Positions 8,916 through 47,313 of a stretch of 64,000 bases of DNA are shown in pieces. Made by a program: the position numbers and the translations under genes. Numbering within the stretch: the first letter of the stretch is position 1; each line of letters opens with the position of its first letter. The stretch comes from Chionoecetes opilio (lineage: Eukaryota > Arthropoda > Malacostraca > Decapoda > Majidae), in contig JACEEZ010019119.1 of assembly GCA_016584305.1 (NCBI GenBank), forward strand, positions 182,133 through 246,132, given 5' to 3'. The notes under the pieces were generated by a model. It was given only the letters and a program-made list of their open reading frames with translations, did no database searches and was not told where the DNA came from.

Positions 8916-8939
8916 CGTGACTAGGCATCGGGGGCTACA

Positions 8940-11900
8940 GATAACATTCAAGGCACAGATGTGAGAAGAAGCTGTAATAGAGGAAGAAGATAACATTTCA
9001 AGGCACAGATGGAGAAAGAATGAAGGTAATAAAGGAAGAAGGAACACTTCAAGGCACAGATGGAGAAGGAAGGTAATAAAGGAGAAGATAACATTCAAGG
9101 CACAGAATGGAGAAGGAAGGTAATAGAGGAAGAAGATAAACACTTCAAGGCAACAGATGGAGAATGAAGGTATAAAGGAAGAAGGTAACACTCAAGGCAC
9201 GAGAGAAGGCTCAGGTAATAAAGAAGAAGATAACACTTCAAAGGAACAGATGGAGAGAAGGAAGGTAATAAAGGAAAAGAAGATAACACTTCAAGGAACA
9301 GATGGAGAAGGAAGGTAATAAGAAGAAGATAAACTTCAAGGCACAGAGGAGAAGGAAGGGTAATAAAGAAGAAAAACACTTCAAGGCAACGATGGAGAAG
9401 GAAGGTAATAAAGGAAGAAAGATAACACTTCAAGGCACAGAGGAGAAGAAGGTAATAAAGAAGAAGATAAACACTCAAGGCACAGGATGGAGAAGGAAGG
9501 TAATAAGGAAGAAGATAACACTTGCACGGCAACAGATGGAGAGGAAGGTAATAAAGGAAGAAGATAACACTTCAAGCCACAAATGGAGAAGGAAGGTAAT
9601 AAAGGAAGAAGATAACACTTCAAGGCACAGATTGGAGAAGGAAGCGTAATATAAGGAAGAAGGTAAACACTTCAAGGCACAGATGGAGAACGGAAGGTAA
9701 AAGGAAGAAATAACACTCAAGGACAGATGGAGAAGGAAGGTAATAAAGGAAGAAAGATAAAACTTCAAGGAACAGATGGAGAAGGAAGGAAATAAAGTGA
9801 AGAAGATAACACTTCAAGGCACAGATGGAGAATGTAATAAAGGAAGAAGATAACACTCAAGGGCACGATGGAGAAGGGAAGGAATAAAAGGAAGAAGATA
9901 ACACTTCAAGGACACAGATGGAGAAGGAAGGTTAATAAGGAAGAAGGTAACACTTTCAAGGCACAGATGGGAGAAAGGAAGGTAATAAAGGAAGAAGGTA
10001 ACACTTCAAGGCACAGATGGAGAAGAAGGTAATAAAGGAAGAGAGAACACGTCAAGGCACAGATGGGAAGGAAGGTAATAAAGGAAGAAGAGATAACAAC
10101 TTCAAGGCACAGATGGAGAAGGAAGGTAATAAAGGAAGAAGATTAAACCACTTCAAGGCACAGACGTGAGAAGGAAAAGGTAATAAGGAAGAAGATAACA
10201 CTTCAAGGCAAGATGGAGAAGGAACGGTCATAAAGGAAAGAAGAAAACACTTTCAAGGCACCAGAGGAGAAGGAAGTTAATAAAGGAAGAAGGGTAAACA
10301 CTCAAGGCCACAGATGGAGAGGAAGGTAATAAAGGAAGAAGATAACACCTTAAGGGAACAGATGGAGAAGGAAGGTAATAAAGTAAGAAGATAACACTCA
10401 AGGCACAGATGGAGAAGAAGGTAATAAAAGGAAGAAGCTAACACTTCAAGGACGATGGAGAAGAAGGTAATAAAGGAAGAAGAGAAGAAAACACTTCAAG
10501 GCACAATGGAGAAAAGGAAGGAATAAAGAAGAAGATAACACTTCAACGGCACAGATGGAGAAGGAAGTAATAAAGGAAGGAAGATAAAACTTCAAGGGCA
10601 CAGATGGAGAAGGAAGGTAATAAAGGAAGAAGATAACACTTCAAGGCACGACGGAGAAGGAAGTAATAAAGGAAGAAGATAACACTCAAGGCACAGATGG
10701 AGAAAGGAAGGATAAAGAAGAGATAAAACTTCAAGATTGAAACCCAACAGATGTGAGAAGGGAAGGTAATAAAGGAAGGAAGATAACACTTCCCCACAAA
10801 AAAGGCACAGATGCGAGAAGGAAGGTAATAAAGAAGAAGGTAAAACTTCAAGGCCACAGCATGAGAAGGACAGGTAATAAAGGAAGAAGATAACACTTCA
10901 AGGCACAGATGGAGAGGAAGTAATAAAGGAGAAGATAACACTTCAAGGCCACCAGATGGGAAGAAGGAGGGTAAATAAAGAGGAAGTAAGATAAACAATT
11001 CAAGGCACAGATGGAGAAGGAAAGTAATAAAGGAAGAAGATAACACTTCAAGGCACAGATGGAAGAAGGAAGGTAATAAAGCAGAAGATAACACTTCAAA
11101 GCACAGATGGAGAAGAAGGTAATAAATGAAGAAGATAAACACTTCAATGCAACAGATGGAGAAGGAAGGAATAAAGGAAAAGAAGATAACACTTCAAGGC
11201 ACAGATGGAGAAGGAAGGTAATAAAAGGAAGAAGTATAAACACTTCAAGGCACAGGATGGAGAATGGAAGGTATAAAAGGAGAAGATAACACTTCAGGGC
11301 ACAGATGGAGATTAGGAAGTAATAAAGGAGAAGGTAACATTCAGGCACAGATGGAGAAGGAAGGTAATAAAGGAGAAAGATAACAACTTAATGCACAGAT
11401 GGAGAAGGAAGGTAATAAAGGAAAGAGATAACACTTCAAAGGGCCACAGATGGAGAAGGAAGGTAATAAAGGAAGAAGATAACACTTCAAGGCACAGATG
11501 GAGAAGGAAGGTAATAAAGGAAGAAGATAACACTTCAAGGCACAGATGGAGAAGGAAGGTAATAAAGGAAGAAGATAACACTTCAAGGCACAGATGGAGA
11601 AGGAAGGTAATAAAGGAAGAAGGTAACACTTCAAGGCACAGATGGAGAAGGAAGGTAATAAAGGAAGAAGGTAACACTTCAAGGCACAGATGGAGAAGGA
11701 AGGTAATAAAGGAAGAAGATAACACTTCAAGGCACAGATGGAGAAGGAGGGAATAAAGGAAGAAGATAAACACTTCAGGCACAGATGAGAGAAGGGAAGG
11801 TAATAAAAGGAAGAAGATAACATTCAAGGCCCAGATGGAGAAGGAAGGTAATAAAGGAAGAAGATAACACTTCAAGGCACAGATGGAGAAGGAAGGTAAT

Positions 11901-11962
11901 AAAGGAAGAAGATAACACTTCAAGGCACAGATGGAGAAGGAAGGTAATAAAGGAAGAAGGTA
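8940..11962. repeat. 48-bp minisatellite, about 62 copies
   Basis: The unit runs from CACAGATGGAGAAGGAAGG through TAATAAAGGAAGAAGATAAC to ACTTCAAGG, 48 bp in all. Copies at about 11,450-11,760 and 11,830-11,950 are nearly identical, whereas copies elsewhere differ mainly by one-base insertions and deletions. Because 48 is a multiple of three, long frames appear on both strands; nothing suggests they are translated. Confidence 0.95.
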
Positions 11963-12107
11963 AATAATTAAGAAGGTAATTAAGAAGGATAATTAAGAAG
12001 ATAAAGAAGGAAGATAATTAACATTGCTAGAGAAAAATAATGGCGAACTAGTAATGACTTCACAATTCATGGAGAAGAGAGGAACTTTGAAAAGGTGTAG
12101 AAAACCT

Positions 12108-13545
12108 TGTCTTGTATTGTATGCATGTATTGTACACCTAGTGTTTAATGCATGGAAAGTCTTGTATTGTATGCATGTATTGTACACCTAGTGTTTAATG
12201 CAGGGAAAGTCTTGTATTGTATGCATGTATTGTACACCTAGTGTTTAATGCAGGGAAAGTCTTGTATTGTATGCATGTATTGTACACCTAGTGTTTAATG
12301 CAGGGAAAGTCTTGATGTTATGGCCTGTATTGTAAACCTGGTGTTTTAATGCAGGAAAGTTTGTATTGTATGCATGTTTGTATGCATTGTATGTACAACC
12401 TAGTGTTACTGCAGGGAAACTCTGTATTGTATGCATGTATTGTACACTGCGTGTTTAGAAGGGAAAGTCTTGTATGGTATTGCATGTATTGTACACCTAG
12501 TGTTTAATGCAGGAAAGTTTGTATGTATGCATGTAGTTGACACTAGGTTTAATGCAGGGAAAGCTTGTATTGTATGCATGATATGTTACACCGGTGTTTA
12601 ATGCAGGGAAGTCTTGATTGTATGCATGTATTGTACACCTAGTGTTAATGCAGGGAAAGTCTTGGATTGTATTGCATGTATTGTTTACACCTAGTGTTTA
12701 ATGCAGGGAAGTCTTGTATTGTATGCATGATTGTACACTGGTGCTGTAATGCAGGGAAAGTCTTGTAATGGTATGCATGTATGTAAACCTGGTGTTTAAT
12801 GCAGGGAAAAGTCTTGATGTATGATGTATTGTACACCTGGTGTTTAATGCAGGGAAAGTCTGTATGTCTGCATGTATTGTTCACCTGGGTTTAATGCAGG
12901 GAAAGTCTTGTATTGTAGCATGTATTGTACACTTAGTGTTTAATGAAGGAAAGTCTTGTATTGTATGCATGTATTGTACCACCTAGTGTTTAATGCAGGG
13001 AAAGGTCTTGTATTGTAGGCAGGTATTGTAAACCTAGGTTTATGCAGGAAAGTCTTGTATGGTAGCATGTATGGTACACCTAGGGTTTAATGCAGGGAAA
13101 GTCTTGTCTTGTATGGCATGTATGTACACCTAGTGTTAATGCAGGGAAAGTCTTGTTATTGTATGCATTGTATTGTAACCTAGTGTTTAATGCAGGGGAA
13201 AGTCTTGTATTTGTAGGCATGTATGTACACCTGGTGTTTTAGCAGGGAAAGTCTTGTATTGATATGCATGTTGTACAACCTTGTGTTTAAGCCGGAAAGT
13301 ATTGTATTTTTATGCAGTATGGTTACACCTAGTTGTTTAATGCAGGGGAAAGTCTTGTATTGTATGTGTATTGTACACCTAGTGTTTAATGCAGGGAAAG
13401 TATTGTATTGTATGATGTATGTAACCTAGTGTTTAAGCAGGGAAAGTCTTGTATTGAATGCATGTATTGTACACCAGTGTTTAATGAAGGTAAGTCTTGT
13501 ATTGGTATGCCAGTATTGTAACTGGTGTTTAATGAAGGGAAGTCT
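12108..13545. repeat. 50-bp minisatellite, array A
   Basis: About 29 copies of a 50-bp unit that contains GTATTGTATGCATGTATTG and GTGTTTAATGCAGGGAAAG. The first four copies are identical; later copies carry many single-base indels. The same unit reappears at 14,697-15,385, so the PANK4 exon at 13,798 sits between two arrays of one satellite. Confidence 0.95.
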
Positions 13546-13797
13546 TAGACAAGGAAAATTAAACCCTTCACTCCCAGATATGTCCGTGGCATAAAAAGTT
13601 GTATGTTGTCAGCCATTAAAATACGAAAAGTAACTTAATATATCAAATTAGTTAGTCGACAAGGATACTAGCAGGTCATATCGATAAAATATTGCTTATA
13701 TTAACTTAAAAACGTCTAATGGTAGTCAAATTACCATGGAAATTACGTTCTGAGTCTCAAGGGGTTATATTCAGCTTTATAAGTTCCTAATACTTAC

Positions 13798-13949
13798 AAC
13801 GGATGGTTCTTTAAGTGGCGTAGTCTTTGATGATCTTGTCTCGAAAATTGTCTGCTCTCTCTCTACTGTCTGAAATATGGGCTGTGAATAGAGATGGCCG
13901 CACTCCACAAACTTCCAGAGAGCCCTCAACACAGGACAGACAGTAGTCT
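13798..13949 (-). CDS. Pantothenate kinase 4 exon (linker to phosphatase domain)
   Basis: Minus-strand exon between a CACTAG acceptor and a GTAAGTA donor. It reads DYCLSCVEGSLEVCG, then ERADNFRDKI and, after one missing T in a TTT run, TLKNHPF. These blocks align without gaps to the PANK4 segment that links the kinase fold to the C-terminal DUF89 phosphatase (family motifs L-C-E-L, ERA-FR-K, TL-PF). In animals PANK4 is a cytosolic protein whose DUF89 domain removes phosphate from 4'-phosphopantetheine and related CoA precursors. The exon follows the other PANK4 exons in order on this strand. The missing T is either a consensus error or a true frameshift. Confidence 0.72.
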
Positions 13950-14696
13950 CTAGTGAGGTCAAATGAACAATATGTAATACAAAATAAGCAGTTCACTTCA
14001 CCAAAAGAAAAACGAATAAGTGAATAATGATGTCATAAAGAGATGACATCTGATGAGTGGCCCAAAACAGGATTTGATTCAAGAAAACACACACAGAATC
14101 ACACAAGATTAATCGTCAAAAAATAAATATCATATGACACACACATTACTTCATTAAATAATTCATAAATGACACAAAGTCTACGCACTGATACTATACG
14201 CAGAAACACCTTTATATATATAGCTATTATCAATGATTTGCTTTAGTACTTAAGTTCATTCCTCGTCCATATATTTATGTTTGTTGTTTTTTCTTGTATG
14301 CCTTCAGGTGTGAAGAAAATTATTATTATTATTATTATGATTATTACTATTATTATTGAGCGGGCTGCCTTATCCTGTGAGATCCCCAGTATCTGGGACA
14401 CCCTCCTCATGGGCAGGCTAAGTAGGGGGAAACAACGTTAATTGCTGTCACAAAACCATCCATCCCAGCTGGTCACGAGTCCCACCGGGCCACCCCGGGA
14501 GGATGCGGGGGAGGGGGGCTGCAGACCGGAGGAGCAGCACAGTTCTCAACCCAAGAATGACTTGTCAGAGTCTGGAAGAAACTATACCAGTGGTTTTGTA
14601 TGTGAGTTATGAAAGGATTACTAAGGTCATCCAAATAGAGCAGACCTTCTATTTTACTCTTGTTGTTTCTGTTTATTCTTTATTAGTGTAAAAGGG
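13950..14696. other. Intron of PANK4, no exon recognised
   Basis: Contains a short (ATT)n tract at about 14,324-14,358 and GC-richer sequence at 14,380-14,570. I could not find the PANK4 exons expected between those at 16,075 and 13,949 here. Confidence 0.4.
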
Positions 14697-15385
14697 GGAA
14701 AAGTCTTGTATTGTATCGGGTTTTGTACACCTAGTGTTTAATGCGGGGAAAGTCTTTTTTTTTAGCAGTATTGTACACCGGGTGTTTAAAGCGGGAAAAT
14801 CTTGTATTGTATGCATGTTTGTACACCAAATTTTTTTTAATCGGGAAAAGTTTGTATTGTATGCATGTTTGTACCCTGGTTTTTAATGCAGGGAAAGCCC
14901 TTGATGTATGCATGTATTTACACCTTGTTTAATGCAGGAAAGTTTGATTTTTCAGGTTGAAACCCCTTTTTAAGCAGGGAAATCTTGTATGTATGCATGT
15001 ATTGTACACCTAGTGTTTAATGCAGGGAAAGTCTTGTTTGTTCATGTATTGTACACCTGGTTTTTAAATCGGAAAAAGTCTTGTTTTGTATGCATGTATT
15101 GTACACTAGTGTTTAATGCGGGGAAACTTGTATTGTATGCTTTTTGTACACCTGTGTTTAATGCGGGGAAAGTTTGTTTTGTATGCATGTATTGAAACCT
15201 GTTTTTTATGGGGGAAAGTTTGTATTGTATCATTATTGTACCCCTGGGTTTTTAATGCAGGGAAAAGTCTTGTATTGTATGTTATTGTACACCTGGTTTA
15301 ATGCGGGAAAGTTTTGTATTGTATGCAGTATTGTACACCTGTTTTTAATGCGGGGAAAGTTTGATTTATGCATTTTTTTTAAATG
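14697..15385. repeat. 50-bp minisatellite, array B
   Basis: About 14 noisy copies of the unit described for array A at 12,108. The copies have many homopolymer changes, consistent with poor consensus quality. Confidence 0.9.
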
Positions 15386-15427
15386 GTGTTTTTGGGGGTT
15401 TGGGAAAAATTTTTGGATTTTTTGGTT

Positions 15428-15682
15428 TGGTGGGTGGGGGTGGGGGGGGGTGGGTGGGTGGGTGGGGTGGGTGGGGGGTGGGGTGGGTGGGTGGTGGGTG
15501 GGGGGGGGGGGGTGGGGGGTGGGTGGGGGGGTGGGTGTGTGGTGGGGGGGTGGGTGGTGGGTGGGTGGGTGGGTGGTGGGTGGGTGGGTGGGGGGTGGGT
15601 GGGTGGGGTGGGGTGGGTTGGGTGGGGGTGGGGTGGGTGTGGTGTTTGTGTGTGTGTGGGGGGTGTGTGTGTGTGTGTTTTG
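15428..15682. repeat. (GGGT)n / (GT)n microsatellite
   Basis: Strongly G-rich tract of GGGT and GGT repeats passing into GT repeats. The long frames on both strands (Gly-Val-Trp or Pro-His-Thr) are repeat artefacts. Confidence 0.95.
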
Positions 15683-16074
15683 TCGGGGGGGAGGGATCAC
15701 TCTTGGTTACGGGGTGGTAGTAATTACTTGCTTTTAAATGTTTTGAATAATCGGAAAGTGCACTTGTCTCTGGCATGCAAAAAACTACTTGCTTAGTTAT
15801 TAAACTTACACAGAGGAGCGCATTTTTTGGGGGGATTTTTATTTTGGGGTGGGCGATTTTTTTGTATTTTTTTTGTTTTTTTTTTTGGATTTTTTTATTT
15901 TTTTTTTGGATTTTTTTGATTTTGGTGTGAAAGTTCTTAGGAAGGAAAATTATGTAGCTACAGAAAAAAAAATTTTTAAAATAAAAATTTGCATTTTTTG
16001 GAAAAAAGGCTTAAATATTTTGGGGGGAAAAATATATAACATCTTCATGTGCCTACTATAATAATTTTTCCTAC

Positions 16075-16230
16075 CACACTCTTCAGCTCCCATAAAAAAG
16101 CCCCGATGGCTCCCAAAAGCCTTTATGGGCAGAAAAAGTGCCCCGAACACCCTCGGGTCCCGTAATTTTGGGGCCAACTGATGGTTGGATGCTCCCGGAT
16201 GGCTGCGCAGAAATACCCTCCAAAAAAAAC
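16075..16230 (-). CDS. Pantothenate kinase 4 exon (kinase fold, C-terminal part)
   Basis: Minus strand, between a poly-T tract ending in TAG and a GTAGGA donor. The start reads VFFGGYF, and shortly after IREHPTISW; the second half reads ALFL-HKGFLGAIGAF-MGAEE once three single-base homopolymer gaps (in G, C and T runs) are allowed for. Both halves match the PANK4 block that follows the helix encoded by the upstream exon (family pattern VYFGG-F-IR-HP ... ALFLRHEG-LGAIGAF). The phase fits: the exon at 16,602 ends after a complete codon and this one begins with GTT. Three extra residues lie between YF and IR compared with the family. The surrounding sequence is visibly noisy, so I take the gaps as probable assembly errors, but true decay is not excluded. 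Confidence 0.8.
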
Positions 16231-16467
16231 CTAAAAAAATATACAAAATAGTTCTCTCCCTTTGGTGTTGTTCTTGCTTGGCACAAGTTATCCTCCCCCT
16301 GAAGAATGTTCACCCCGCATCAAAAGGGCTCTCAGAAGCTTTATTGGTGATAGAAATTTTCGGTGATTAAATTTAAAAGTTAATACAAAGAAGTGTTAAA
16401 AAAAGGAGAAAAAACATGATAAAAAATTTAACCCATGTTTCATTATGGCTGGAAATTGGATGATCGG

Positions 16468-16515
<48 letters not shown>

Positions 16516-16601
16516 AACCATTTCTTTTAAAAGGTTGAAAATAATTCACCTTTTTTTTTATCCCTGAACTTTCATCAACAATCTGTCCCTGAAAATTCTA
16601 C
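16231..16601. other. PANK4 intron with poly-A run
   Basis: Short intron between two PANK4 exons, including an uninterrupted A run at about 16,470-16,512. Homopolymers are inflated throughout. Confidence 0.6.
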
Positions 16602-17879
16602 CTTGTCCATAAACTTGCATAAGGGGGGGCAAACTGTCCATAAGCATTGCATCAGGAGGCATCTGTCCATGAAGCATTGCATACAGGGGGGCAATCTGTC
16701 CATGAAGCATTGCATACAGGGAGGCAATCTGTCCATGAAGCATTGCATACAGGGAGGCAATCTGTCCATGAAGCATTGCATACAGGGAGGCAATCTGTCC
16801 ATGAAGCATTGCATACAGGGAGGCAATCTGTCCATGAAGCATTGCATACAGGGAGGCAATCTGTCCATGAAGCATTGCATACAGGGAGGCAATCTGTCCA
16901 TGAAGCATTGCATACAGGGAGGCAATCTGTCCATGAAGCATTGCATACAGGGAGGCAATCTGTCCATGAAGCATTGCATACAGGGAGGCAATCTGTCCAT
17001 GAAGCATTGCATACAGGGAGGCAATCTGTCCATGAAGCATTGCATACAGGGAGGCAATCTGTCCATGAAGCATTGCATACAGGGAGGCAATCAGTCCATG
17101 AAGCATTGCATACAGGGAGGCAATCAGTCCATGAAGCATTGCATACAGGGAGGCAATCTGTCCATGAAGCATTGCATACAGGGAGGCAATCTGTCCATGA
17201 AGCATTGCATACAGGGAGGCAATCAGTCCATGAAGCATTGCATACAGGGAGGCAATCTGTCCATGAAGCATTGCATACAGGGAGGCAATCTGTCCATGAA
17301 GCATTGCATACAGGGAGGCAATCTGTCCATGAAGCATTGCATACAGGGAGGCAATCTGTCCATGAAGCATTGCATACAGGGAGGCAATCTGTCCATGAAG
17401 CATTGCATACAGGGAGGCAATCAGTCCATGAAGCATTGCATACAGGGAGGCAATCAGTCCATGAAGCATTGCATACAGGGAGGCAATCAGTCCATGAAGC
17501 ATTGCATACAGGGAGGCAATCTGTCCATGAAGCATTGCATACAGGGAGGCAATCTGTCCATGAAGCATTGCATACAGGGAGGCAATCTGTCCATGAAGCA
17601 TTGCATACAGGGAGGCAATCTGTCCATGAAGCATTGCATACAGGGAGGCAATCTGTCCATGAAGCATTGCATACAGGGAGGCAATCAGTCCATGAAGCAT
17701 TGCATACAGGGAGGCAATCTGTCCATGAAGCATTGCATACAGGGAGGCAATCAGTCCATGAAGCATTGCATACAGGGAGGCAATCAGTCCATGAAGCATT
17801 GCATACAGGGAGGCAATCTGTACAATAGCATTACTGACAGTAAACAACAAGCTTCGTGCAAGGTCTGCTTCGGAAAACC
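16602..17879 (-). CDS. Pantothenate kinase 4 exon with in-frame 33-bp repeat expansion
   Basis: Minus-strand exon. After an ACTTGCAG acceptor it reads FSEADLARSLLFTVSNAIVQ, then IASLYAMLHG. This aligns residue for residue with PANK4 (family FSKEDMAKSLL, SN-IGQLA-LHA-LH-LDR). In the family the segment occurs once and is followed by LDR-VYFGG. Here the 11-residue unit (IASLYAMLHG plus Q or L) is repeated in frame about 35 times, then two worn copies end in MDK at a GTAGAA donor. The next exon resumes with VFFGG, so the array lies inside the exon, which grows from roughly 110 bp to 1,278 bp. Only the last two copies break frame (29 and 32 bp). If translated, the kinase fold would carry an insertion of about 390 residues. 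The kinase half of mammalian PANK4 is reported to be catalytically inactive, so such an insertion might be tolerated; that is inference. Confidence 0.85.
16663..17817. repeat. 33-bp minisatellite, exactly 35 full copies
   Basis: From 16,663 to 17,817 the period is 33 bp without a single indel. Copies are identical except at one base: the triplet at the unit border is CTG or CAG on the plus strand. One end copy has an extra difference (CAGGGGGGC for CAGGGAGGC). It encodes the 11-residue repeat of the PANK4 exon on the minus strand. The plus strand is also open over the array but has no gene context. Confidence 0.97.
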
Positions 17880-18534
17880 CTGCAAGTATTTTGGAACAAT
17901 GTAATATTTACATGCAGCAAAATAACAATAAAATTTGCTGTAATTGCATTATAGTGCTCAAGATGATCTGACCAATTACTTATTTAGAAATTTTTTGATA
18001 ATATACTAAGCTTCATTTAATTACTCATATTTTGAATAAGATGATCATTCTTCTCAGTATTTGTAAGACACTGTAGTGAACATATTGTCAAGCAATACAT
18101 AATATATTAGTGTTCCATAGAACCCATCACTTTCTTGATGTATTGAAACATTTCTAATCCCGTGCTCACATGATGCTCCTCACCATGGAATAACGATCAC
18201 AAGGGCTCACAAAGAAGTGTCATTCTCTACATGTTATAAATCCTACTGTCTGGAAATAAATGAGCCTATGCTTTTATTTAATGACTACACTTTACAAGCT
18301 TTCAAACTTAATTATTTAGATAGCACCAGCATGGCTATTGCAGGCACAGCACTACCTTGACAACCTACACTACAAACCAAACCTACCAAGCATGAATCAG
18401 AGATGCACACGATTACATCAATCAAATAGCACGGCTTTACTCCTCTATTACCCATCAACACTATCCCCCAATACATCACTCAGATACATATTGGTTCCTT
18501 GATTCATCATTTTTGCAATGCCGTTGTGCCACGT
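17880..18534. other. PANK4 intron, nothing recognised
   Basis: AT-rich single-copy-looking sequence without clear repeats or exons. Confidence 0.5.
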
Positions 18535-19867: not shown

Positions 19868-20005
19868 CTTATGCAAGGACCCTGTATCACACTGCCAGTG
19901 TATACTAATAATGTCTTCTACTTGTCCACATAACGGAGCAATCGGCTTAAACATAACCGACTTCTCCCCCCTTTTAGTTCCGTTAAATGAGGGTCCCTGT
20001 AATAT
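19868..20005. mobile_element. Tigger/pogo-like MITE end (fragment)
   Basis: Carries CGGCTTAAAC, CCCCTTTTAGTTCCGTTAAA and GAGGGTCCCTGTA, matching the right end of the element at 41,333-42,423. The left part is missing. Confidence 0.55.
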
Positions 20006-20930
20006 ATATTTTAGCCATCAAAAAAGAAATTCCGGCATCTTAGGAACTGTGTGGTTGCCGGATAGCTGAAGCTTTTTGCCTTCACACAGACCTTTACAGG
20101 TTGAATAAACAGTGAATGAATATTGTAAATAAAAATAAGATGGGAAAATATTAAAATGAAAGAAATTCAATTTTCATGTTGAACAAATGGAATTGTTGAA
20201 TAAATGTAACCAGTAAGTAATTCTGTGGACTTTCTTAAGAATTTCCATAACAGCTGCCTGTGGTCGTAATTGCAATCTAAACCACACTCGCCCTTTGTCC
20301 TGCCCTGGGGAGGTGACCCGTCGGTCACTACACCAATCACTCGTCCCTGTGATTCCCATCGCTACACAATATGCCTTGCGTTCACCTAACTTCCTTTGTC
20401 TTGTATATTTATCTTCATATTTTGTAAATATACATAATTTATATACATCTACCACTGTGTATGCAATCGACCCCACACACATTCTTGCAGGGACCCCTAG
20501 CTGCTACCAAGACAAGCCAAAGCGGTTCATCAACCCACATTGCTTCCTACCTCTAGCCTTTCTGCTCGGGGCCCCCCACACCACCTAGGGTTTCCTATAC
20601 CCAACACACTATGTCTTACAAAAGTGAGAAGCTGGAAGAATTTACTATAAAAAAAATTTCTGGCAGTAAGTAGGGCTGTAAGGATCATTATCTTCACAGT
20701 AACTGGCACACAGCTTCAGTAACTGCCGAACCACACTACCTAGAAGCGCATCAAATATTGCACCCGTAGCAGCGAATCCCAAAGACAGTCGTGCTAAAAG
20801 CTGCATTTTGAAATTTGTGCTCACAATTTTGTTCGCTGTGAAACTCGTGAAGGTCCCAGATACCTGATTACTGTGGGATTTTTCGATGGTCAACCTAACA
20901 TAATCATATTATATATCTATATATTTATTA
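20006..20930. other. No gene recognised
   Basis: Mixed sequence. A minus-strand frame at about 20,645-20,890 is open and not repetitive (FKMQLLARLSLGFAATGAIF) but has no recognisable homology and no convincing splice context, so it is not called. Confidence 0.4.
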
Positions 20931-21914
20931 CAGTAGGTCCCGAAAGAATACGAGCAGTTTAGGTTTCCACCTGCATACTCGTTAAAAGCGAACATCTCGT
21001 ATAACAGAAACCATAACTGAATGGTAGAAATATATGTTTTGTTCGAGACCCCCAAATCAAATTAAAAAACAAAAAACAACAGACAACAACATGTTGTTTT
21101 CCCAAGCTGAAAAATAAACTATAGCAACACAAACAAACAGAACAGAGTCTATTACCCACACTGTACTACCTCTATTCTATAGAAGAAAAAGTATTCTGAA
21201 AGAGTAAAATAGCACACAAAAATCACCTAACTGCACATTAATTAACATAAAACATAAACATGCATAACACCTCACAAGTGGGAATGTTGTGTGGGGAGAC
21301 AGGAAGCCTTGCACTTAGCCAAGTTGAGAGTCCCTGTTTTCTCTCTCCGAGGTTCGAGAGCAAACAGCTTGGTACTGCGTTTGCAGGGATGACTGGGTGT
21401 AGAGTTCTTCTCCTCCCCTGATCACTGAGGGAAGAGAAAGATGCCTCGTGCTAAAAAGACGTTGTATGTAGGCTACTGTTGGGGACGTCGCGTGTACCCT
21501 AGACTCCAGAGGGTAGGGTACGGTAAGGGACAGGGAAGAAGTGCGCAAACCTCTTCCACTGCCACACTCGTCTCTGCGCATCCTGATCATTGTACATCGT
21601 CCAGGTATGTGAATTTTTTGGTAGGGCCACATTGTCGTACCGAGCCACCAGAATTATCATATTTTCCGATTGATTAATTATCGGTACAACCTTAGGTAAA
21701 ACTCATATAGTTCAGTAATTACTTTATAATTTTATTACATAACTTGTAATTTACTTTAGTAAATAATTTTTGTGCCTTTTACTCACACCCAGTTTGAATG
21801 TCGTAGCAATTGGATTTTTCGATCTCGTATATTGAAAATAGACTCTAATTTACACATCTCGAATTCCATCGGAATTCTCGTATCATCGAATAGCTCGTTA
21901 TACGGGACTCCCTG
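20931..21914. mobile_element. Pogo/Tigger-like MITE
   Basis: Left end CAGTAGGTCCCG, right end CGGGACTCCCTG, both flanked by TA, the target duplication of Tc1/mariner and pogo elements. Inner sequence near both ends repeats TACGAGC/GCTCGTA motifs. No transposase is encoded. Confidence 0.65.
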
Positions 21915-21922
21915 TATATACC

Positions 21923-22050
21923 TAAATATATATATATATATATATATACATATTATTACATGAATATATTATATAGATATATATATATATATATATATAA
22001 TATATAATAGATATATATACTATATATATATTTATATATATATATTATAT
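21923..22050. repeat. (AT)n microsatellite
   Basis: AT repeats between two pogo-like elements. Confidence 0.9.
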
Positions 22051-22127
22051 AGGTACAGTAACACCCTTATAACTCGGCACTGTTAAACTCGGAATTTGAT
22101 ATAACTCGGTATGGCAAAGACTGACTG

Positions 22128-22161
<34 letters not shown>

Positions 22162-22235
22162 CACAGCACCAACCCACACACACACACCACCCACCCACCC
22201 ACCCACCCACCCACAACCCACACACAACACACACC
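22128..22235. repeat. poly-T and (CA)n tract
   Basis: A run of about 25 T followed by CACA and CCACCCAC repeats. Confidence 0.9.
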
Positions 22236-22474
22236 TATGCCCATAGCACTATGTAGGCAGTGAGCTCCAGTGGGTGATGATAGGCCCTGGAGGCTCACTC
22301 GGAGGGCTTGATGGTTGGCCCTCGCCCGTGGTGGCGCAGGATGATGTTATAGTGACGCCTGTGATGAGAGGCTCCATGCGCCGCCGTGGTCCTCTCATGC
22401 ACTCACAGTCGAAGGTAGAGTTAATGGACAGCGCATGTGGGTGTTCTAGGCCACTCGACGGTGCAAAAAGATTT

Positions 22475-22575
22475 CAAGTGGATTTTGGTCCTCACTCGGG
22501 ATCGACTCCGGTTCTTCGAGAACGCCACTCGTGACGGGGGCCCCTAACCACTCTGCTACTGCCTCACCTAAAACT
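22475..22575 (-). mobile_element. tRNA-like SINE head
   Basis: On the minus strand TAGCAGAGTGG fits the RNA polymerase III box A pattern, and GGAGTCGATCCC about 40 bases downstream resembles box B (GGTTCGANTCC) with a change. Sequence before box A reads GGTGAGGCAG. No cloverleaf was established, and the full SINE length is not clear. Confidence 0.35.
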
Positions 22576-23594
22576 GCATCTCATGGTTTCAACTCGGCAT
22601 ATCATAGCCCTCACAACCTCTTCTGTGAAAATGTAAACAGAAAGTTGGCAAAAATATGTATCTCGGCCTACTGATGTTATAACTGCATCTCTCGCTTACA
22701 CTCTGGCATATCGTCAGTCGCATAAAGTCGTATTTTGGTTCCTTTTGATCTTTTCCTGCAAGCTCAGGCTCTTCAATTTCATCCCTTCCTGCTGGAGACA
22801 CCCTTGGCGTGATGGTCTGACATCTTGAAATACATACGTATGATGTAATCCCAAAACACGTACAATAGGTGCAAAGTTAAAGCAAGGTCGGAACCAGCGT
22901 GTAGGCTGTCAGCTGCTGAGCCGTGTTTTGTCGTCAAAGCACGCGTCTTGGATACGAATTCCGTTTTTTGTCGAATTGAAAGGATTGGTGTCTGCTTCGA
23001 TAAAACACAACCAAGCCTTGGTATGGAAACTAGAGCCGAAATAATAATCAATGCAAAACATTGGCAAACACTATCACAGAGTAGTATAACACACATTTCA
23101 GCAAGTGTTATTGGATTGGGTATCGTAATCCAGACGGTGCTTGGACGAACAAAAACACGGCTCGGCCTACGCACTGTTTCCGATCTTTGCTTATTTGCCA
23201 CCTATTTTTACGTGTTTTTGGGATTACATCATACAGTACTGTATATCAAGAAATGTCAGCTCCATCACGCAGGGTGTCTCCACAGAAGGGAATGAAATTG
23301 AAGGCCTGAGCCTGCAGGAAAAGGGTGAAAGTGCTGGCACGGATGATGCGGTGCGTCCATGTGTGCTATTTGTGCTGAGTTTTGATGATCAAATCCACTC
23401 AGCACATTCTAAACCCGTTCATCTGGTAGTGTAGTTTTTATATGCTTTACATACACTGTATTTCCTTTTTTTTTTTTTTTTGTTTTTTATAACCCCTATC
23501 AGAGGAGGACATTGATACCTCGGCCATTGAATAACTCGGCCAAGGGCCAGAGCCCCTATCCGTGCCGGGGGGGTTATAAGGTTTTACTGTATTA

Positions 23595-23651
23595 TTATAT
23601 ATAATATATATTATATATAATATATATATATATAAAAAATAAAAGAAAAAA

Positions 23652-23694
<43 letters not shown>

Positions 23695-23700
23695 TATAAG
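23595..23700. repeat. (AT)n microsatellite
   Basis: AT repeats with an A-rich interruption. Confidence 0.85.
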
Positions 23701-23990
23701 CTTTCATGGAATATGTAATTTAATTCTTGTTAATATTACCATTGTACATATGGCACAAGGAAGACTATGGGAATAATCACAACTAAGGTCTACGTAGTGT
23801 TGGAATACTCTGTTTATAGCAGAGATAAGCGAATAAAGGATAAAAGTGTTAGGGGCATAGGACCACTGGAATACCTGGACTGCATCACTCGACAATGTTT
23901 TGAATTGCGGGGCTGCATTAGGGCCATGCGGGGCGCCCGAAACAAAGAGATACAGTTGGTTCTATGGACTATCTATCAAGACTGGTTTAT

Positions 23991-24782
23991 CAGTATATAT
24001 GATTACTGTAATCTTCATAAATGTTTGTTCTATAATATTTTATGCAATAAAAAACAGTAAAACACGCTAAGAAATGCCATTACGAGACTATTGAGAAAAT
24101 GCATGACCTTAATATTCACGTTAACTCTTCGCCATTTAAAACTTTGCGTGTCAAACTTTTATCAGGAAGGGTATCATAGAAGTGCAATTTTAGTAGCTTT
24201 CCATTGCTATTTTCGTTATCTTGATAAATTAGTAGAACCATGCATAAATTATCGGTTAAATAAATAAATACAGTATCATCATCGGGTAATTTTCCCGATT
24301 GATGAGGTTATTTTATTTACTTATATATTTCGTTTTCTCGATAAATGATGATAACCATGTATAAATTAGCGTTGACTAAATAATAACCTCATCAATCATG
24401 AAAATGTACCCATTGATGATTTTATTTATTTATATTTTAACGCTAATTTTATGCATGGTTTCTAATTAATATCAGATAACAAATACTCATGGAAAGCTAT
24501 AAAATGCGCTTCTATTGATACCCTTCCTTCTTGACTCGCTTTTCATCGCTGTGTTTGTCCGGTCCACAAAGTTCTTTATATAATATCATCTTTGCGAAGA
24601 GTTATGAATAGTAGCACATAGACATATATATACGTGCAGTTTCCGATTCTGTTCATACCTCTAGGTGGTCTTTGTCTCCTTCGCTTGGGGTGTTGTGGCT
24701 GGAGTTCGTGTGTCTTTTCAGATAAAGGATGATAATATTATAGAACAAACATGTACGAGGATTACAGTATATCATATTACTG
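23991..24782. mobile_element. Foldback element, family FB-1, copy 1
   Basis: The left end (CAGTATATATGATTACTGTA, later TGTTTGTTCTATAATATT) recurs inverted at the right end (to 24,782). Inner arms pair as well: CTTTCCATTGCTATTTTCG and ACCATGCATAAATTA at 24,190-24,255 have inverted partners at about 24,450-24,510. The right arm carries about 150 bp not present on the left. No coding capacity. Two more copies of this family lie at 26,574-27,705. Confidence 0.7.
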
Positions 24783-24799
24783 AGACCGTCGATATGAGC

Positions 24800-25050
24800 C
24801 GTTATATATAGATATTCTATATATATATATATTATATATATATATATATATAGATTTATATATTATATATATATAAATTTTATATGAATATTATATATTA
24901 TATATATATATATTATATATATAATATATATATGATTACATATATACTATATATATATATTATATACCTGTATAGACTACTATATTATATATATAAGGGG
25001 TATATAAGATATATATATAATATATATATATATAATATTATATTTAGGAT
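24800..25050. repeat. (AT)n microsatellite
   Basis: About 250 bp of AT repeats with short GC-containing interruptions. Tyr-Ile frames over it are artefacts. Confidence 0.9.
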
Positions 25051-26573
25051 ATATGACTCCGAGTCGGCCTCGACTTTCAGGCCCTTGTGCGACACGGCCG
25101 ATATTCCCGTGTGCAGATCACATGTATACAGTGGTCTTCTGGGTAGGGATATAATATTCACTGACAGCAGAGATGGGCTTGGCGTGTGACGGATAGCGAG
25201 CTCGCTGCATTGCTGGCCACCAGGACGCAGCTTGACAGCCCGTCTGATTGTAAACAGAGGCAGCCTTGACACATAGTATGCACACATTTTTTCTGTATAA
25301 TAAGGGATAGGATTGATACTTTAGGGGTCTGATAACGCTAAATGCCTCTAAATAATAATTATCCAAAGTGATAAGGGAGGAATTAATAAGTCATAATTAT
25401 AATTCTTAATAGAAAAAATCCACTCAGCTAATTAGATTAACCTGTATGTGATAAAATAATTTTGTCAAATAAACGGTGCTATTAATATATCATTTCAAGA
25501 CGAGCTAGGGAGTGCAGAAATCAGTATGTTGAGATTTGAATGCTTATCGATGGGATGCCTGAACTTATGAAGAACTGAGAGGCAGCCTTTGAAAGCAGGG
25601 TGCTTTATCCGTGATTGGGATGAGCAAGTGGCAAATGTTGCTTTGGCTCGTGGACAATTGGATAATGGATAAGAAAGATAAGATGATGAAGGTGACTTAA
25701 TAAAACAACTACAAATTTTACAGGTTAAGAGACAATTAGTGGATGCCTTTTTTTGGTGATAAACGGTAATATAAGATGCAAGGAAAGAGAAGTATGGTTG
25801 TTATAGTAAGTTGTTTTTAGTGAGGGAGTTGAGGTTAGGTGTGAGACCCATCTGCAGTGTCAGGGTGTTGCTGACTGTAGGAAAGGTGATATCAAGGTCT
25901 CGGGGAAGGAGAGTTGTTGTGTGTGAGGACAGATTTGATGGAAGCTATACAGGCAAAACATAATATCTTATTAAGTGCATGCATAATCCTTATAACTAAA
26001 TTTTAAGGACCAGCACGTCCATTCGAGACTGATAGGACACATAGATGAAGGGACAGACACGATAATTCACGTATGGTTCGGTCGCCAAAAAAAGCGGGCT
26101 GATTTTTAAGTTGATTAGTTTGGTATGGCCATGATGTCACGATACAAATGGCCCTCGGTAGTAAAATTGTTCCCCCCCCTTGCTATAAGGGACGAAGTAG
26201 GAAGGTTGTGTCCTTCTGTGTCTGATAAGTGTGGAATTGTGTGGACTAGTAGGTTAGAAGGGCAAAGATATCGTTAGGTGAAATGTCAATTGGATTAGTC
26301 AAATAGTGTTGTGTGTGTGTGTGTGTGTGTGCTCCCGTGAACATGAAAACCGTGAAAGGGAAGGATGAAATGATGAAATTTTGTAATGACTTGAATGAAT
26401 GTGTCACCCTAATTTCGAGATGATACTTTTAATACTGAATAGTTTTGGTGTGATTTGATTAATCTGACTAAACACATCAAAACTCACATCAGGAACGAAG
26501 TGTTGACTCCAAAAAGAGTAAACGTTATGTGATAAGAAGAGCCACAACAATTTTTTGTTTTGAGTTGTGGCTT
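25051..26573. other. No gene recognised
   Basis: No exon or named repeat apart from a (GT)n tract at about 26,306-26,332. Several short frames exist without family or splice support. Confidence 0.4.
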
Positions 26574-27705
26574 CTGCCGTGCCACCGAGATACAAGGCCT
26601 GATGCTCGCCCGTGTGACGTTCACACCATCTAGTGCCCACCCGCTTCCGCTCCCCGTACAAGTTTACATACTAATATAATGTTTTATCAGTATAAAAAGA
26701 TATACTGTTTCTTCGGAAATGTTTGTTTGTCTATAATATTATCAAATAAAAAATTTTGTGTGTTTTAACAAAAAAAAACACACCCCCCAAAAGAAATGCC
26801 ATTATAGACTATTCAGAAATATCATTAACTTAAACTCTTCGCCATTTAATATTTTGGCTTGAAAACGTTTACATGGAGAATATATAGAAGCGGAATTTAA
26901 TTACTTTTCCATTGATTGATTTCGTTAGTCATTAATGAAATTAGCCGTATGCATAAATTAGCGTTAACTAATATTACAATCATGAATCGGGTAATTTCCC
27001 TACCTAATATAATGTTTTATCAGTATAAAAACAGATATACGGTTATCTCTGAAAGTGTTTGTTTGTATATATATCCATAAAAAACCGTAAAACACACAAA
27101 GACAAAAGCTATTATGCTACTTTCAGAAATATGCAATTAACTTAAACTCTTAGCGCATTTAATATTTTGAAAACAAAAACTTTTTACATGGATTATTTCA
27201 ATAGAAGCGGAATTTAATTACTTTCCATTGATATATTTCCTTTTGCCTAATACATGAATTTAGCAGCATGCTAAATTTAAGCGTTAATAAATAATACATC
27301 ATTAAATCTGGTAATTTTTCCGAGATTGAGGGTTAATCTTTATTTTAGTTAACGCTAATTTGTGTATGGTTCTAATTCATTAACTCAGAAAAGGAAATAT
27401 ATCAATGGAAAGCTAATGTATTCCACTTCTATTTATGTTCTCCATGTAAACAATTTCACACAATAATTTAAATGGCGAAGATTTAAGTTTCATGCATATT
27501 TTCTTGAAAGTCTCAATAATGGGCTTTCTTTTGTGCGTTTTTCTCGGTTTTTATTTGATATATTATAGAAACAAACATTTCGCGAAGATAACCGTAATCT
27601 TTTATACTGATTAACATTATATTAGTAGGTAGACTTGTACGTGGAGCAGGAGCGGTGGCACTCTGATGGTGTGCGTCACGGGCTATGCATCAGCTTGTCA
27701 TCTCG
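26574..27705. mobile_element. Composite foldback element, family FB-1
   Basis: The outermost arms pair: GTACAAG-TTACATACTAATAT and upstream GACGTTCACACCATC on the left are found inverted at about 27,600-27,705. Inside, 27,003-27,630 is a complete palindrome with ends CTAATATAATGTTTTATCAG and its inverse. The left half is present twice (26,667-27,000 and 27,003-27,320). The arms share TTTCCATTGAT and ATGCATAAATTAGCGTTAA with copy 1 at 23,991. Confidence 0.7.
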
Positions 27706-27807
27706 TGCCACGGCTCTACTCCCGTCCCTCCTGCCCTCCCCACAACTCCGCTCCACGTCGCACTGCCTAGTGTTTAGTATATTTTTTCTTGGTATTGTTG
27801 TCAAATA

Positions 27808-28837
27808 CCGTAAATTTGCGGCGTACAAGTCGACCTCATGATTATTAGCTCAAGATTTACGGGTCCAAGGCCCTATACGTTCTTGCCGTATAAGTCGGCC
27901 ACCAAAAATACGGTAGGCTACTGGTAGGCCAAAGCTAAATGTTGGTTATAGCTACGCTACGGTTAAACGGTAACCTGTCGCAAAAACCCACAACACCACC
28001 CCTTATATGAAGATATGAATCTTTACTATAGGTCCGCCTCCTTGTTTTTCACTTTGAAAAACACCCTAGTCGCCCTGATAGTCCGCTACATTACTGTATA
28101 TTCTTAGTAATAACAACCCTAGTCCCCTGATAGTACGCTACATACTGGTATATTAAGTAAAACACCCTAGTCCACCTGATAGTAACCCTACATACTGGTA
28201 ATATTATATAAAACACCAGTCCCCTGATAGTACCCGATACATACTGTATATTATAGTAAAACCCCCTAGTCCCTGATAGTACCCTACATACTGTAATATT
28301 TATGAGTCAACACCCTAGTCCCCTGATATAACCGGCTACATAACTGTATATTAGAGTAAAACACTTGTATGACTGGACTTGCACTTGACCGCGCCCTCCC
28401 ATTTCATATGTGAAAAACCACCAGTTGCCTTGTATACTGTTGGCTGCTGGCCGCTTGGGTTCGAGTGGCGTTTCGGTCATGTTTTATAATCTGTGTAGTA
28501 GCTGTTGGAAAGCAGCTGTCTTCATACCCCCGACATCCATCCACTAACGTTACATCGGGCCACACACCAGCAAGACAAACAATGTGGTGGAAACTGCCGC
28601 AAAACTCTTCCTCCAGTTTGTCGCTGTGCTGCAGGAAATATTTTATCCCCATGGAAATATTTGTGGTCAACCTGCTGGAGTTTACGTAAGTGTGTACAGC
28701 GAATTGTTAGTAGTGCTACATCCACTTGTTTGCACTCGGTGGTAAGGTTCGCATTTTATCCTAGCACTATAATCGAAACCTAGTTTAGAGAATTTTTTTA
28801 GGCCAAAGAGATCGACTTGTACGCCGCCCATTTACGG
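27808..28837. mobile_element. Pogo-like TIR element with GCGGCGTACAAGTCGA ends
   Basis: Left end TACCGTAAATTTGCGGCGTA, right end the inverse of TACCGTAAATGGGCGGCGTA, with TA at the borders. A 47-bp tandem repeat lies inside. A second copy in the opposite orientation is at 36,159-37,559; the two share the inner segment around GGTGGTAAGGTTCGCATTTT (seen inverted there). No transposase frame. Confidence 0.7.
28062..28370. repeat. About 47-bp tandem repeat, 6-7 copies
   Basis: Degenerate unit with CACCCTAGTCCCCTGATAGT and ACATACTGTATATTA, inside the pogo-like element. Confidence 0.85.
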
Positions 28838-30184
28838 TAATTAATCCCGAACCTGATAAACTACATAACCTAAATGATTCAGGGCAGAAAATCACTAGTT
28901 TTTAGACAGGGATTGGCTCCCCGTCCTTCAAGACCCTCCAAGCCCCGTCAAGGGGCCATTAGGATAATGATGTGCCTGGTTCTCACAAGTCAAATAGTTT
29001 GTTTTACATTGCAGACGAAAACCAGCACAGCACGCAGATTTTGACATAGAAATAATATGCACTCATTTTCTCTAATCATGGTGAATATATACAAAAGTAT
29101 TTGCATCGAGATTTCATTTTTCTTATTTTTGGGTTGCAGATTCATTGCACCTCAAAAAAGTTCTAAATAAGCGCATTTGAAAAGAGATGTTTTTACTTTT
29201 TCCTTGGGCAACAGTGGGGGTCGTCCTCGCTTCGAGACAGTGAATCTCGAGCATCGTACTGCTCCCGTCACGTTGGAGATGCTCTCAAATGCCTTGGTGT
29301 CAATATTTCTTAGGAGGTTTCTCTCAAACTGGGGATGTGACATAGCACTACATACTGGGAGGAATATTAGTCATTTTTTCCCAACACCAATATTTTACTG
29401 TGGGCCCCAGGTCTGCCGTGAACGGGAGGTCCCACACGCCACAGTAGCCCACTGTGTAGTTGTCTGTAGCTCCGTCGTCGCTTTTTACCTGACTGAACTT
29501 TATTATTATTACAGGTGTACTCCATTAATTTTAAATCATTTCTTGCAGCTTTTTTTTGTCCATTTATACTATTCTAATGCAGATAGGATATGTCTTCAGT
29601 TATGATCTAAAATCAAAATTGCACTGAATCCGGGTATGTTGTTAGAGTGGGGGATCAGCACATTTTCAGCCAATTTCAAACATTTCCGCGACCCTCTCTG
29701 TTATGTTAACTCCATGATCGACTATTTGTCAAGGCTCGGCAGTTTTACTTCAATGCTTACATCTTCTAAGTCGCAGATGCAAGCTTATGACTCCTCTTTC
29801 CACTTTCACTTATGCATGCTGACCGCTCTCTTAGCCATGATTTGCTGCCGGACACATTTGAATAAAGACATAACTAAAAACATAGTCCTACTTCTTCCAT
29901 TTTTTGATAGGGCATCATGTCCTTTACCATACTACAAATCAATCAATTTAGTATATACTTTCCTCTCCTTTCCTTGATGTAATCTCAATTTATTGTCCAT
30001 AGATTAAAAAAAAGGCAAATAAAAAAAATGTATTCAGCAGAACAAGAACATTTCATGGACTCGTATTATTTGATTTGGACAACATCATGCCAACTTACCT
30101 AAACAGCCCATAGTAGCTTTTATCAAAGCACAGATATGATCAACAAAAATTCTTTTAAGTAAGATATATGTATTAAAAAATAGC
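28838..30184. other. No gene recognised
   Basis: The 142-codon plus-strand frame at 29,177-29,605 is open but shows no recognisable domain, contains a (TAT)n stretch, and lacks a convincing acceptor, so it is not called as a gene. Confidence 0.4.
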
Positions 30185-30657
30185 AATGCCCTTAACGACA
30201 CTGTGACGTGCTATATAGGTAATGTATTATCGAGCATCAAGTAGCTAGAATATCACTGACCTTAGAAGCCTGTGACTGCTATATAGTACATTGTTTATCA
30301 GTATCAAGTAGCATAAATTAATGCACCTAGAAGGACTCTGGTGCTGCTATATGTACATGTAGTAATCAGCATCAAGTATCACTAAATATTCAATCACCCT
30401 AGAAGACCTGTGGACTGTGTGCTATATCGTACTTTGTAGTTATCAGCATCAAGTAGCTCATAATATCATGCACCTAGAAGACTTTGACTGCTAATGTAAC
30501 AGTAGTTATCAGCATCAAGTAGCATAAATATGCATGCACCTAGGAAGACCTGGGAACTGGCTTAATATAGTACATTAGTTTACAGCATCAGTAGGCATAA
30601 CTATCATACACCTAGAAGACCTGGTTGACTGCTATAATAGTACATGTAGTAATCAAG
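30185..30657. repeat. 68-bp satellite, left part
   Basis: About seven noisy copies of a unit containing CATCAAGTAGCATAAATATC, TGCACCTAGAAGACCTG and GACTGCTATATAGTACATG. The array is interrupted by the hAT element at 30,658 and resumes at 33,493. Confidence 0.9.
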
Positions 30658-30973
30658 CAGGGGTTGCCGCGTGCGATAAAATGAGCGCATAAACTATAAA
30701 CGATAATTATCGCTGAGGTCAAACCTTTTATCGTTTATCGTTTATCGCAAAGTTTTCTAAAATTATCGCTCATTCACTTACCGCTAGTCCCAAAAAATGA
30801 GGAACGATAAACGATAAATTCAAAGACGACTTTTGTAAAAATTAGAAAATGTGCACGGCGGCAATAGTCACAACAGCCCGCCTGACGTTTTCAGACCTGA
30901 AAAACCTCATATGAGAGCTGCCAAGTGTGTGTGTGTGTGTGTAGCTGGCCAATCACAGCTGCAGTGCGCCAGT

Positions 30974-31341: not shown

Positions 31342-31430
31342 GGCGCCAGTCTCGCTGGAGTTCTCGAGTTAGGAGGGTGTGTGCCGCTCTATCCCATGCA
31401 CCGTCTTCTCACTGCCAAGAGTCTGGCAAT

Positions 31431-34890: not shown

Positions 34891-35185
34891 CCTGGAAACT
34901 CCCCCACCTTTACTACTGTCCGTGATGCATAGCCTTATCCAAAGCTGGAGGCAATGGTCGAACCCATCAGTTAATCCGCAAGGCACTATACATCAACTTA
35001 CTGTGCCAGGAATGGGACATTAAACCAATCATACCTGTTATTAGTAGAATGAAAAGAGACACAGATATCTACAGTCTCTTACTTGTACTGAGGAGGTAGG
35101 TCATGTGGTTTAAGTCCGTTCAATGGTATCAAGTCACTTTAGTCGCTTTAATTTCTACTCATTAGCAACATTAATAAAATAAATA

Positions 35186-42423: not shown

Positions 42424-42426
42424 TAT

Positions 42427-42565: not shown

Positions 42566-42660
42566 GAGAACACATCACAGAAACTGGGGGGGGGGCACTC
42601 AGTAGAGCGCATACCTCCGCCCGAATATTTAATCAAATATAGGTATATATACGTATATAT

Positions 42661-46590: not shown

Positions 46591-46592
46591 AC

Positions 46593-46761
46593 CATATATA
46601 TCCTTCACCAAGAGGTCAACGTTTCGGTGGTCCCCTGCACTGGCCAGCTGAAGGAGCTCATCAAAGCCTTTGGCCTTGGTGAGGAGGGAACCCAAGCCCC
46701 AAAAGGTTCCACCTCCCATACTGGTGCCTCCAATTCTCTCATACTTGTCGTCAGCTTCTAC
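46593..46761 (-). CDS. Pantothenate kinase 4 exon (kinase fold, glycine motif)
   Basis: Minus-strand exon of 169 bp: CTGCAG acceptor at 46,762, GTAAGT donor at 46,592. It encodes [23 protein letters not shown], then [16 protein letters not shown] and [11 protein letters not shown]. The FWGL and FDELL-LAS-G-H-NVD pattern is that of PANK4 rather than PANK1-3 (FLGL, FEEALE-A). The arginine in ERIGG lies where active pantothenate kinases have a catalytic arginine; from memory, mammalian PANK4 has tryptophan there, so this copy keeps the ancestral residue. The frame is intact. The next exon should start with the remaining two bases of a glycine codon; it was not found, and a small exon encoding about 25 residues is missing between here and 17,879. 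Confidence 0.9.
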
Positions 46762-46920
46762 CTGCAGTATAGGCAACAATCATCAATGAAGGGCTCCACA
46801 GGACTGATTCATGTTGTCCTATAGTCTATTATTTTTATTATGGTCATAATGCACTAAGGAAGACACGCCCCCTCCCTCCCGTTCTATTCTACGGGGCAGC
46901 TGATTCCTCGTATCATCACT

Positions 46921-47075
46921 ACCAATCACAATATCCTCACTATTTAACAGCGGCGTGACCACTGGACAGAGCAATCTTCACTACAGAGGTTGACAAAATC
47001 AAAAATCCCTCTGTAGTGAAGATTGCTCTGTCCAGTGGTCACGCGCTGTTAAGTAGTGAAGATATTGTGATTGGT
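46921..47075. mobile_element. Hairpin (foldback) MITE
   Basis: Arms of about 69 bp (ACCAATCACAATATC ... ACTACAGAGG) with a loop at 46,990-47,007. The inner 45 bp, including TGACCACTGGACAGAGCAAT, are perfectly paired. No coding content. Confidence 0.85.
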
Positions 47076-47079
47076 AAAG

Positions 47080-47312
47080 TATTCCGAGATTAGAAGAGAG
47101 CAAATGTAGTCCCAATTCATAAGGGAGAGAACAAGAGCCACTGAAACTATTCTCTCCGTTGGGCTCTTCCGATCACAAGATTATTTCCGTTACCCGTTCT
47201 TTAGCTACGGTGCTGCCTCGGGACCCACCTAAGTGTAGGCCCTTCTGGCATTACACCTCAGCTAAGTGGGAGGACCTAAGGTAATACTACTCTGATTTTC
47301 CAAGGAATGATT
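47080..47312 (+). pseudogene. Two LINE coding fragments joined out of order
   Basis: First KRANVVPIHKGENKS (a reverse-transcriptase block), then after about 15 bp PLGSSDHKIISVTRSLATVL and KCRPFWHYTSAKWEDLR, the end of a LINE endonuclease domain. The endonuclease should precede the reverse transcriptase, so this is a rearranged or composite remnant. It ends where the next TIR element begins. Confidence 0.65.
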
Positions 47313-47313
47313 A

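Follow-up and report, generated by a model that had tools for sequence, protein, structure and literature searches.

Introduction

PANK4 is a 4'-phosphopantetheine phosphatase (Pfam PF03630 and PF01937) with PANK-like and DUF89/ARMT1-like domains. Taylor and Breden in 2000, and Haber and Louis in 1998, reportedly explained minisatellite birth by slippage at short repeats. Two models of minisatellite birth, with slippage at short repeats, are presented in PMC3389668, and a coding VNTR with a unit of 33 bp (11 residues) is described for exon 11 of human CEL/BSDL in PMC5352176.

Here, we analyzed a stretch of 64,000 nucleotides from Chionoecetes opilio (the window, bases 182133-246132 of contig C14714) and searched the 1.94-Gb assembly of 20,818 contigs. 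On the minus strand of the window, a 33-bp piece of a PANK4 exon is repeated head to tail. The sequence corresponds to decapod PANK4 (P0005, Eriocheir, Homarus and others) in its exons and their order, in splice sites and in residues, in agreement with a preliminary description that had read the array-bearing sequence as a PANK4 exon on the minus strand. Unlike PANK4, however, the window copy was found without exons 1-188 or exons beyond residue ~491, has changed invariant residues and carries more than 35 copies of one segment. It resembles the CEL VNTR in its 33-bp unit of 11 codons and in a copy number that differs (here between contigs of one assembly); but the CEL repeats form a C-terminal mucin-like region of a working gene, whereas here a conserved enzyme core is interrupted in a seemingly decaying copy. 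As in the slippage-birth models, the units are as long as the distance between short direct repeats in the single-copy gene, at three places in the lineage; unlike in them, the genome also contains a single-copy version, and the seeds are coding exons. Apparent truncation, a nonsense codon, an exon insertion and changes at invariant sites (stop and insertion being on sister contigs) are features of duplicated pseudogenes, from which this lineage differs in that exons were turned into minisatellites, a mode of decay that we take to be unusual. No paper came up in a literature search for PANK4 with a tandem repeat in an exon, and among the matches listed in searches on crustacean coding minisatellites and crab genomes, neither this array nor this gene appeared.

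Results

A PANK4 exon with 35 copies of a 33-bp unit

Features of the copy in the window are listed below in the direction of transcription, with residue numbers of the decapod PANK4 query P0005 (785 aa).

46855..47313, minus strand: last stretch matching the single-unit gene (C16237:67364-67826), partly a dispersed repeat
46591..46770, minus strand: PANK4 exon 190-249, clean; differs from C16237 by 5 synonymous and 0 nonsynonymous changes
34905..34990, minus strand: PANK4 exon 249-283, noisy
17821..17879, minus strand: start of the array exon ahead of the repeats (unique sequence, P0005 residues ~282-301), carrying D299A and G301V
16666..17820, minus strand: complete units of the exon-born 33-bp minisatellite (n=35), 11 codons each, [Q/L]IASLYAMLHG
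16550..16665, minus strand: garbled terminal copies (~3), raw-read-like, up to the expected exon end
16065..16232, minus strand: following PANK4 exon (residues 315-373), with frameshifts from assembly noise; C3861 is cleaner here
14360..14572, minus strand: PANK4 exon 370-441, noisy; cleaner counterparts in C15827 and C3861
13800..13954, minus strand: PANK4 exon 440-491, noisy; no interruption, unlike in C15827, where a 1.56-kb insertion occupies the same place

The array is real: the PANK4 exon at 16550-17879 contains one 33-bp piece in many tandem copies. TRF reported a tandem array at 16604-17821 (period 33, 37.1 copies, 97% matches, 0% indels), and the head-to-tail arrangement of the 33-bp unit in 35 clean copies with 97% match makes it a minisatellite. 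Twenty-five units are of a CAG type (CAGATTGCC...), nine are of a CTG type (CTGATTGCC..., an A-to-T change that replaces Q by L), and the remaining 1 of 35 carries a single further base change; neither synonymous changes nor indels occur among them. This confirms the preliminary count of 35 in-frame units without synonymous changes, and the near-identity of the units supports its proposal that the array is very young or homogenised. The reading frame is open from 16558 to 17907 (449 codons) because the 33-bp unit is a multiple of three; a sister array of the same lineage has a period of 34 and is out of frame. The array exon starts with (G)FSEADLARSLLFTVSNAIV at 17879, preceded by an intact acceptor AG at 17881-17880. 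Comparison with C3861 and C16237 places the expected donor of the window near 16549; the site near 16602 chosen in the preliminary description lies in a garbled copy. The exon that was said to follow with VFFGG is indeed a PANK4 exon (16065-16232), but it is frameshifted by noise in the window; in C3861 it is clean and reads QVYFGGYFLRSHP.

Left of ~16680 the window is raw-read-like, with wrong homopolymers and indels, and the frameshifts in the exons at 16065-16232, 14360-14572 and 13800-13954 are therefore taken as false. Similar quality was seen in the window at ~12000-16680 and in parts of 20000-35000, in C16237 at ~53200-55100, in the C3861 array and in C4127 at ~69000-73000; models of genes in such stretches will carry false frameshifts. 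Exons 1-188 were not detected between window coordinates of about -20000 and 74000 by protein and exon-DNA searches, and among 45 matches (57 of 62 candidates scored) no exon past residue ~491 was assigned to the window copy.

Other tandem arrays also occur around these exons. Two arrays with closely similar 47-50-bp units (TTGTATGCATG...TGTACACCT...TTAATGCAGGGAAAG), at 12109-13546 and 14696-15377, flank PANK4 exons 370-491 on both sides, and a 48-bp array of ~62 copies (8939-11963) lies directly 3' of the gene fragment. C16237 contains a 31-bp x 122 array at 39862-43488.

A single-unit PANK4 in the same genome

A PF03630 search of the assembly gave 12 matches. With P0005 as query, at least 45 exon matches were detected on 11 contigs plus C17673, a pantothenate kinase-like locus; 57 of 62 candidates were scored, and these counts are lower bounds. 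C16237 contains, in order, exons 1-33, 32-60, 62-131, 132-193, 190-249, 249-283, 281-316, 315-373, 453-491, 493-524 and 522 to 785. Its exon 281-316 has one unit, SNDIGQIASLYAMLHGLKK, with clean acceptor and donor, and the preliminary view that the repeated unit is a family segment normally present once holds for C16237 and for the PANK4-like protein matches alike. We refer to C16237 as copy A, and to the window copy and its sisters as lineage B. Among all exon matches (57 of 62 candidates scored), exons 1-188 were found solely on copy A, which has also retained those conserved residues that we compared. A search for exon 370-441 on C16237 found no match, and the expected place adjoins the badly unpolished ~53.2-55.1 kb; copy A is therefore not claimed as proven intact. 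The closest proteins among the matches listed are from decapods (P0005, 90%; Eriocheir sinensis, 89%; Homarus, 88%).

Further partial PANK4 matches, several with internal stops, were seen on C1092, C15436, C6827, C9088, C3839 and C4127. Exons 1-188 were found on none of these six contigs (57 of 62 candidates scored), and C6827 is close to C16237 (94%).

The window copy is thus probably not the working PANK4 of this genome. We reject a working PANK4 with a giant insert because 5' exons were not found (57 of 62 candidates scored), invariant residues are changed and a single-unit gene exists elsewhere. The earlier idea that the species' PANK4 carries a translated insert is likewise unsupported: C16237 has a single unit, exons 1-188 were detected on that contig alone among the matches, near-invariant residues are changed in the window copy, and a sister contig of its lineage has a stop, an exon insertion and an out-of-frame exon array.

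Lineage B and its versions

Window, C3861 and C16237 were compared three ways in six regions. In the region where the window is clean, it had private differences at 2 of 702 sites and C16237 stood apart at 58 of 702; in the region where C3861 is clean, C3861 was private at 2 of 613 sites and C16237 apart at 31 of 613. The other four regions were noisier or shorter (in one, of 268 sites, C3861 had 1 private difference). C12900, with private differences at 18 of 695 sites, and C4127 also group with lineage B, with noise. In two regions, the window and C4127 side together against C3861 and C16237 (23 and 12 sites); none of these sites lies in clean surroundings and many are homopolymer-like, but the difference may be real. 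We considered that window, C3861, C12900 and C4127 might be separate paralogs, but infer that they are one lineage assembled repeatedly. At exon 370-441, C15827 shares sequence with the window and with C3861 (95-97% identity to the latter). Within its exon 440-491 lies a 1.56-kb insertion (C15827:57986-59548) that is absent from the window and from C4127, and C15827 is therefore a different version of B. The ends of this insertion are inverted-repeat-like (TTGTGATGCC... / ...GGCATTACA), and it looks like a DNA transposon.

C15827 shows further damage. Its exon 492-524 has become a 34-bp minisatellite of 23 copies (62223-63008, 98% match), which is out of frame and has a stop in one reading; the same array is present in ~10 noisy copies on C15436. 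Exon 522-590 of C15827 contains a 42-bp in-frame tandem duplication. The codon for E718 is a stop in both C15827 and C1092 and a normal codon in C16237 and C6827; C15436 is too noisy at this position. The stop, the 1.56-kb insertion and the 34-bp array are located on C15827, C1092 and C15436, outside the window, and their link to the window copy is by way of the lineage: the damage on the sister contigs would also apply to the window's molecule.

Our favored explanation, which we consider likely, is that the window contains a second, 5'-truncated, decaying copy of PANK4 whose exon sequence became minisatellites. The truncation would then be biological rather than an assembly break, and copy B would have lost its function. 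A less probable, though serious, alternative is that copy B is a highly divergent inactive haplotype of a single PANK4 locus, with the animal heterozygous for the array. In favor of this reading, C15827 is colinear with C16237 for ~5 kb past the last exon, with a further block ~9 kb out (mostly at 84-94% identity), and most exons occur on few contigs only. However, copies A and B diverge by 5-8% in clean introns and by 23 synonymous changes in 378 codons, which we judge to be high for alleles, and at least three versions exist (C16237; window and C4127 without the exon insertion; C15827 with it), whereas a second copy of exons 1-188 was not found (57 of 62 candidates scored). Intron divergence, the number of versions and the failure to find a second 5' exon set among the matches together favor a duplicate.

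Conserved sites and the open frame

Over seven exon pieces (378 codons), 23 synonymous and 13 nonsynonymous changes separate copies A and B, and the stop is among the latter. Twelve of the 13 were set against 121 homologs, namely five of the six matches from a search with the array frame and, for the rest, matches among the 120 listed of 2974; residue 695 was left out as it lies in a doubtful stretch at an exon edge. B differs from P0005 at nine of the 12 sites. Just before the array, SNDIGQ is changed to SNAIVQ in the window, C3861 and C12900: D299 is present in 119 of the 121 listed homologs and G301 in all 121. R351, replaced by P on C3861, is likewise found in 121 of 121. Changes on C15827 include F563C (F in 118 of 121), E718 to stop (E in 116) and A740V (A in 120). 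N325S, F335L and E678A of B fall in more variable columns. At residues 675, 679 and 702, B agrees with P0005 and C16237 differs; these columns are variable and the side of the change is unsure. Two observations speak against decay of B throughout its history, the window exon 190-249 without amino acid change and the overall excess of synonymous over nonsynonymous changes (23 versus 13); so small a nonsynonymous fraction points to constraint on B over much of its existence, with decay setting in later.

A much less credible reading than the haplotype is that the array is a functional coding VNTR, with B transcribed and the array translated into a long helix that is added to the one preceding the VYFGG strand. 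The 449-codon frame, the intact acceptor and the clean donor in C3861 are compatible with it. In solved pantothenate kinases, the segment matching the unit stands before the VVFVG or IYFGG stretch. The 11-residue periodicity, which had been said to suit a helix, does so in prediction: given the exon start and 15 units (185 residues) as a single sequence, AlphaFold2 modeled an unbroken helix (mean pLDDT 93.5). A repeat helix that scores well in the absence of an alignment is nevertheless a poor guide, and such a model is silent on translation. Against translation stand the changed invariant residues, the 5' exons that were not found and the damage to the DUF89 exons of the lineage. The comparison with PANK4 of relatives, which the preliminary description had proposed, also went against an insert: the largest insertion in region 282-373 among the 121 listed homologs was 5 residues, with 116 having none, and in region 492-524 the largest was 0. 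No uninterrupted SNDIGQ-VYFGG segment remains in the window copy, where more than 35 units stand in between. In the array-frame protein search (7998 candidates scored, from a record in which short-read assemblies would break such arrays), the array was absent from all six matches, five of which were PANK4-like with a single segment. The more specific idea that B is expressed and that a single alpha helix of ~390 to 1,780 residues, with a length that differs between alleles, is translated as a continuation of the helix in front of the VYFGG strand seems more doubtful still.

The best match to the array frame was P0001 (317 aa, ENA; 46% over 24%), a protein in which an 11-residue pattern of the SLYAMLHGG type recurs loosely and which is apparently unrelated to PANK4.

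The array on other contigs

The 33-bp array is present on four contigs (window, C3861, C4127 and C12900), in three of them between both flanks; since three contigs besides the window carry it, it is not a one-contig artifact. In C3861 (67947-73222) it is of raw-read quality; the exon begins there as in the window and ends at a clean donor, ATGGACTGAAAAAG|GTAAG. Units in C3861, C4127 and C12900 were decoded with a two-type repeat model. The lengths, compared across four contigs of one assembly, were 35-37 units in the window, ~96 in C4127 and ~162 in C3861 (both noisy), and at least 16 in C12900 before a run of N; the length originally given for the window is thus correct for that contig, but is one of several. 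In the unit code of C3861, a block of 54 units reappears 62 units downstream, differing at 5 positions (score 34, versus at most 22 in 60 shuffles). From this block and the lengths, we conclude that the array is physically long and has seemingly grown by block duplication.

That the assembler made the array from a single-unit exon is extremely improbable: the window is raw-read-like left of ~16680, copy number differs by contig and the locus was seemingly assembled several times, but C3861 and C4127 span 162 and 96 units, there are two unit types, and C16237 shows that the assembler was able to produce the single-unit form. We reject a pure assembly artifact in view of the four contigs and the repeated block structure.

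Discussion

Origin of the minisatellites

On the reading of copy B as a decaying duplicate, the 33-bp stretch that ends exon 282-316 was probably duplicated by replication slippage or unequal exchange. The seed may have been two short imperfect repeats that lie 33 bp apart in the single-unit gene, TGGACAGA and TGGCCTGA. The CTG unit type would be the expected product of a first duplication joined inside TGGACTGA, a sequence that stands at the array end in C3861. Duplication of whole blocks may then have enlarged the duplicated stretch into a long minisatellite whose length varies, and released constraint on copy B would have let it persist. The same lineage produced a second exon-born array (34 bp, out of frame, exon 492-524) and the 42-bp exon duplication.

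At all three places, unit length equals the spacing of short repeats in copy A: 33 for TGGACAGA/TGGCCTGA, 34 for GAGTCTG/GAGTTTG and 42 for AAGCTT/AAGCTT, two of the three pairs being imperfect. The junctions were located by eye. They scored 4, 5 and 6, and among random junctions (20,000 draws each) such scores occurred in 5.5%, 4.5% and 2.9% of cases, respectively. The pattern is suggestive of slippage between short direct repeats as the seed of the arrays, the evidence per junction being modest.

Reconstructions of how a minisatellite was born usually lack the starting point. In the present case, the single-copy and the expanded exon share one genome, and two separate exons (33-bp and 34-bp units) display both start and product with candidate seeding repeats still visible. 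The locus clearly illustrates how an exon can give rise to a repeat array. It also calls for caution: an open frame through repeats in a conserved enzyme can stem from a duplicate in decay, and any gene model that relied on such a frame would contain a giant insert that is false.
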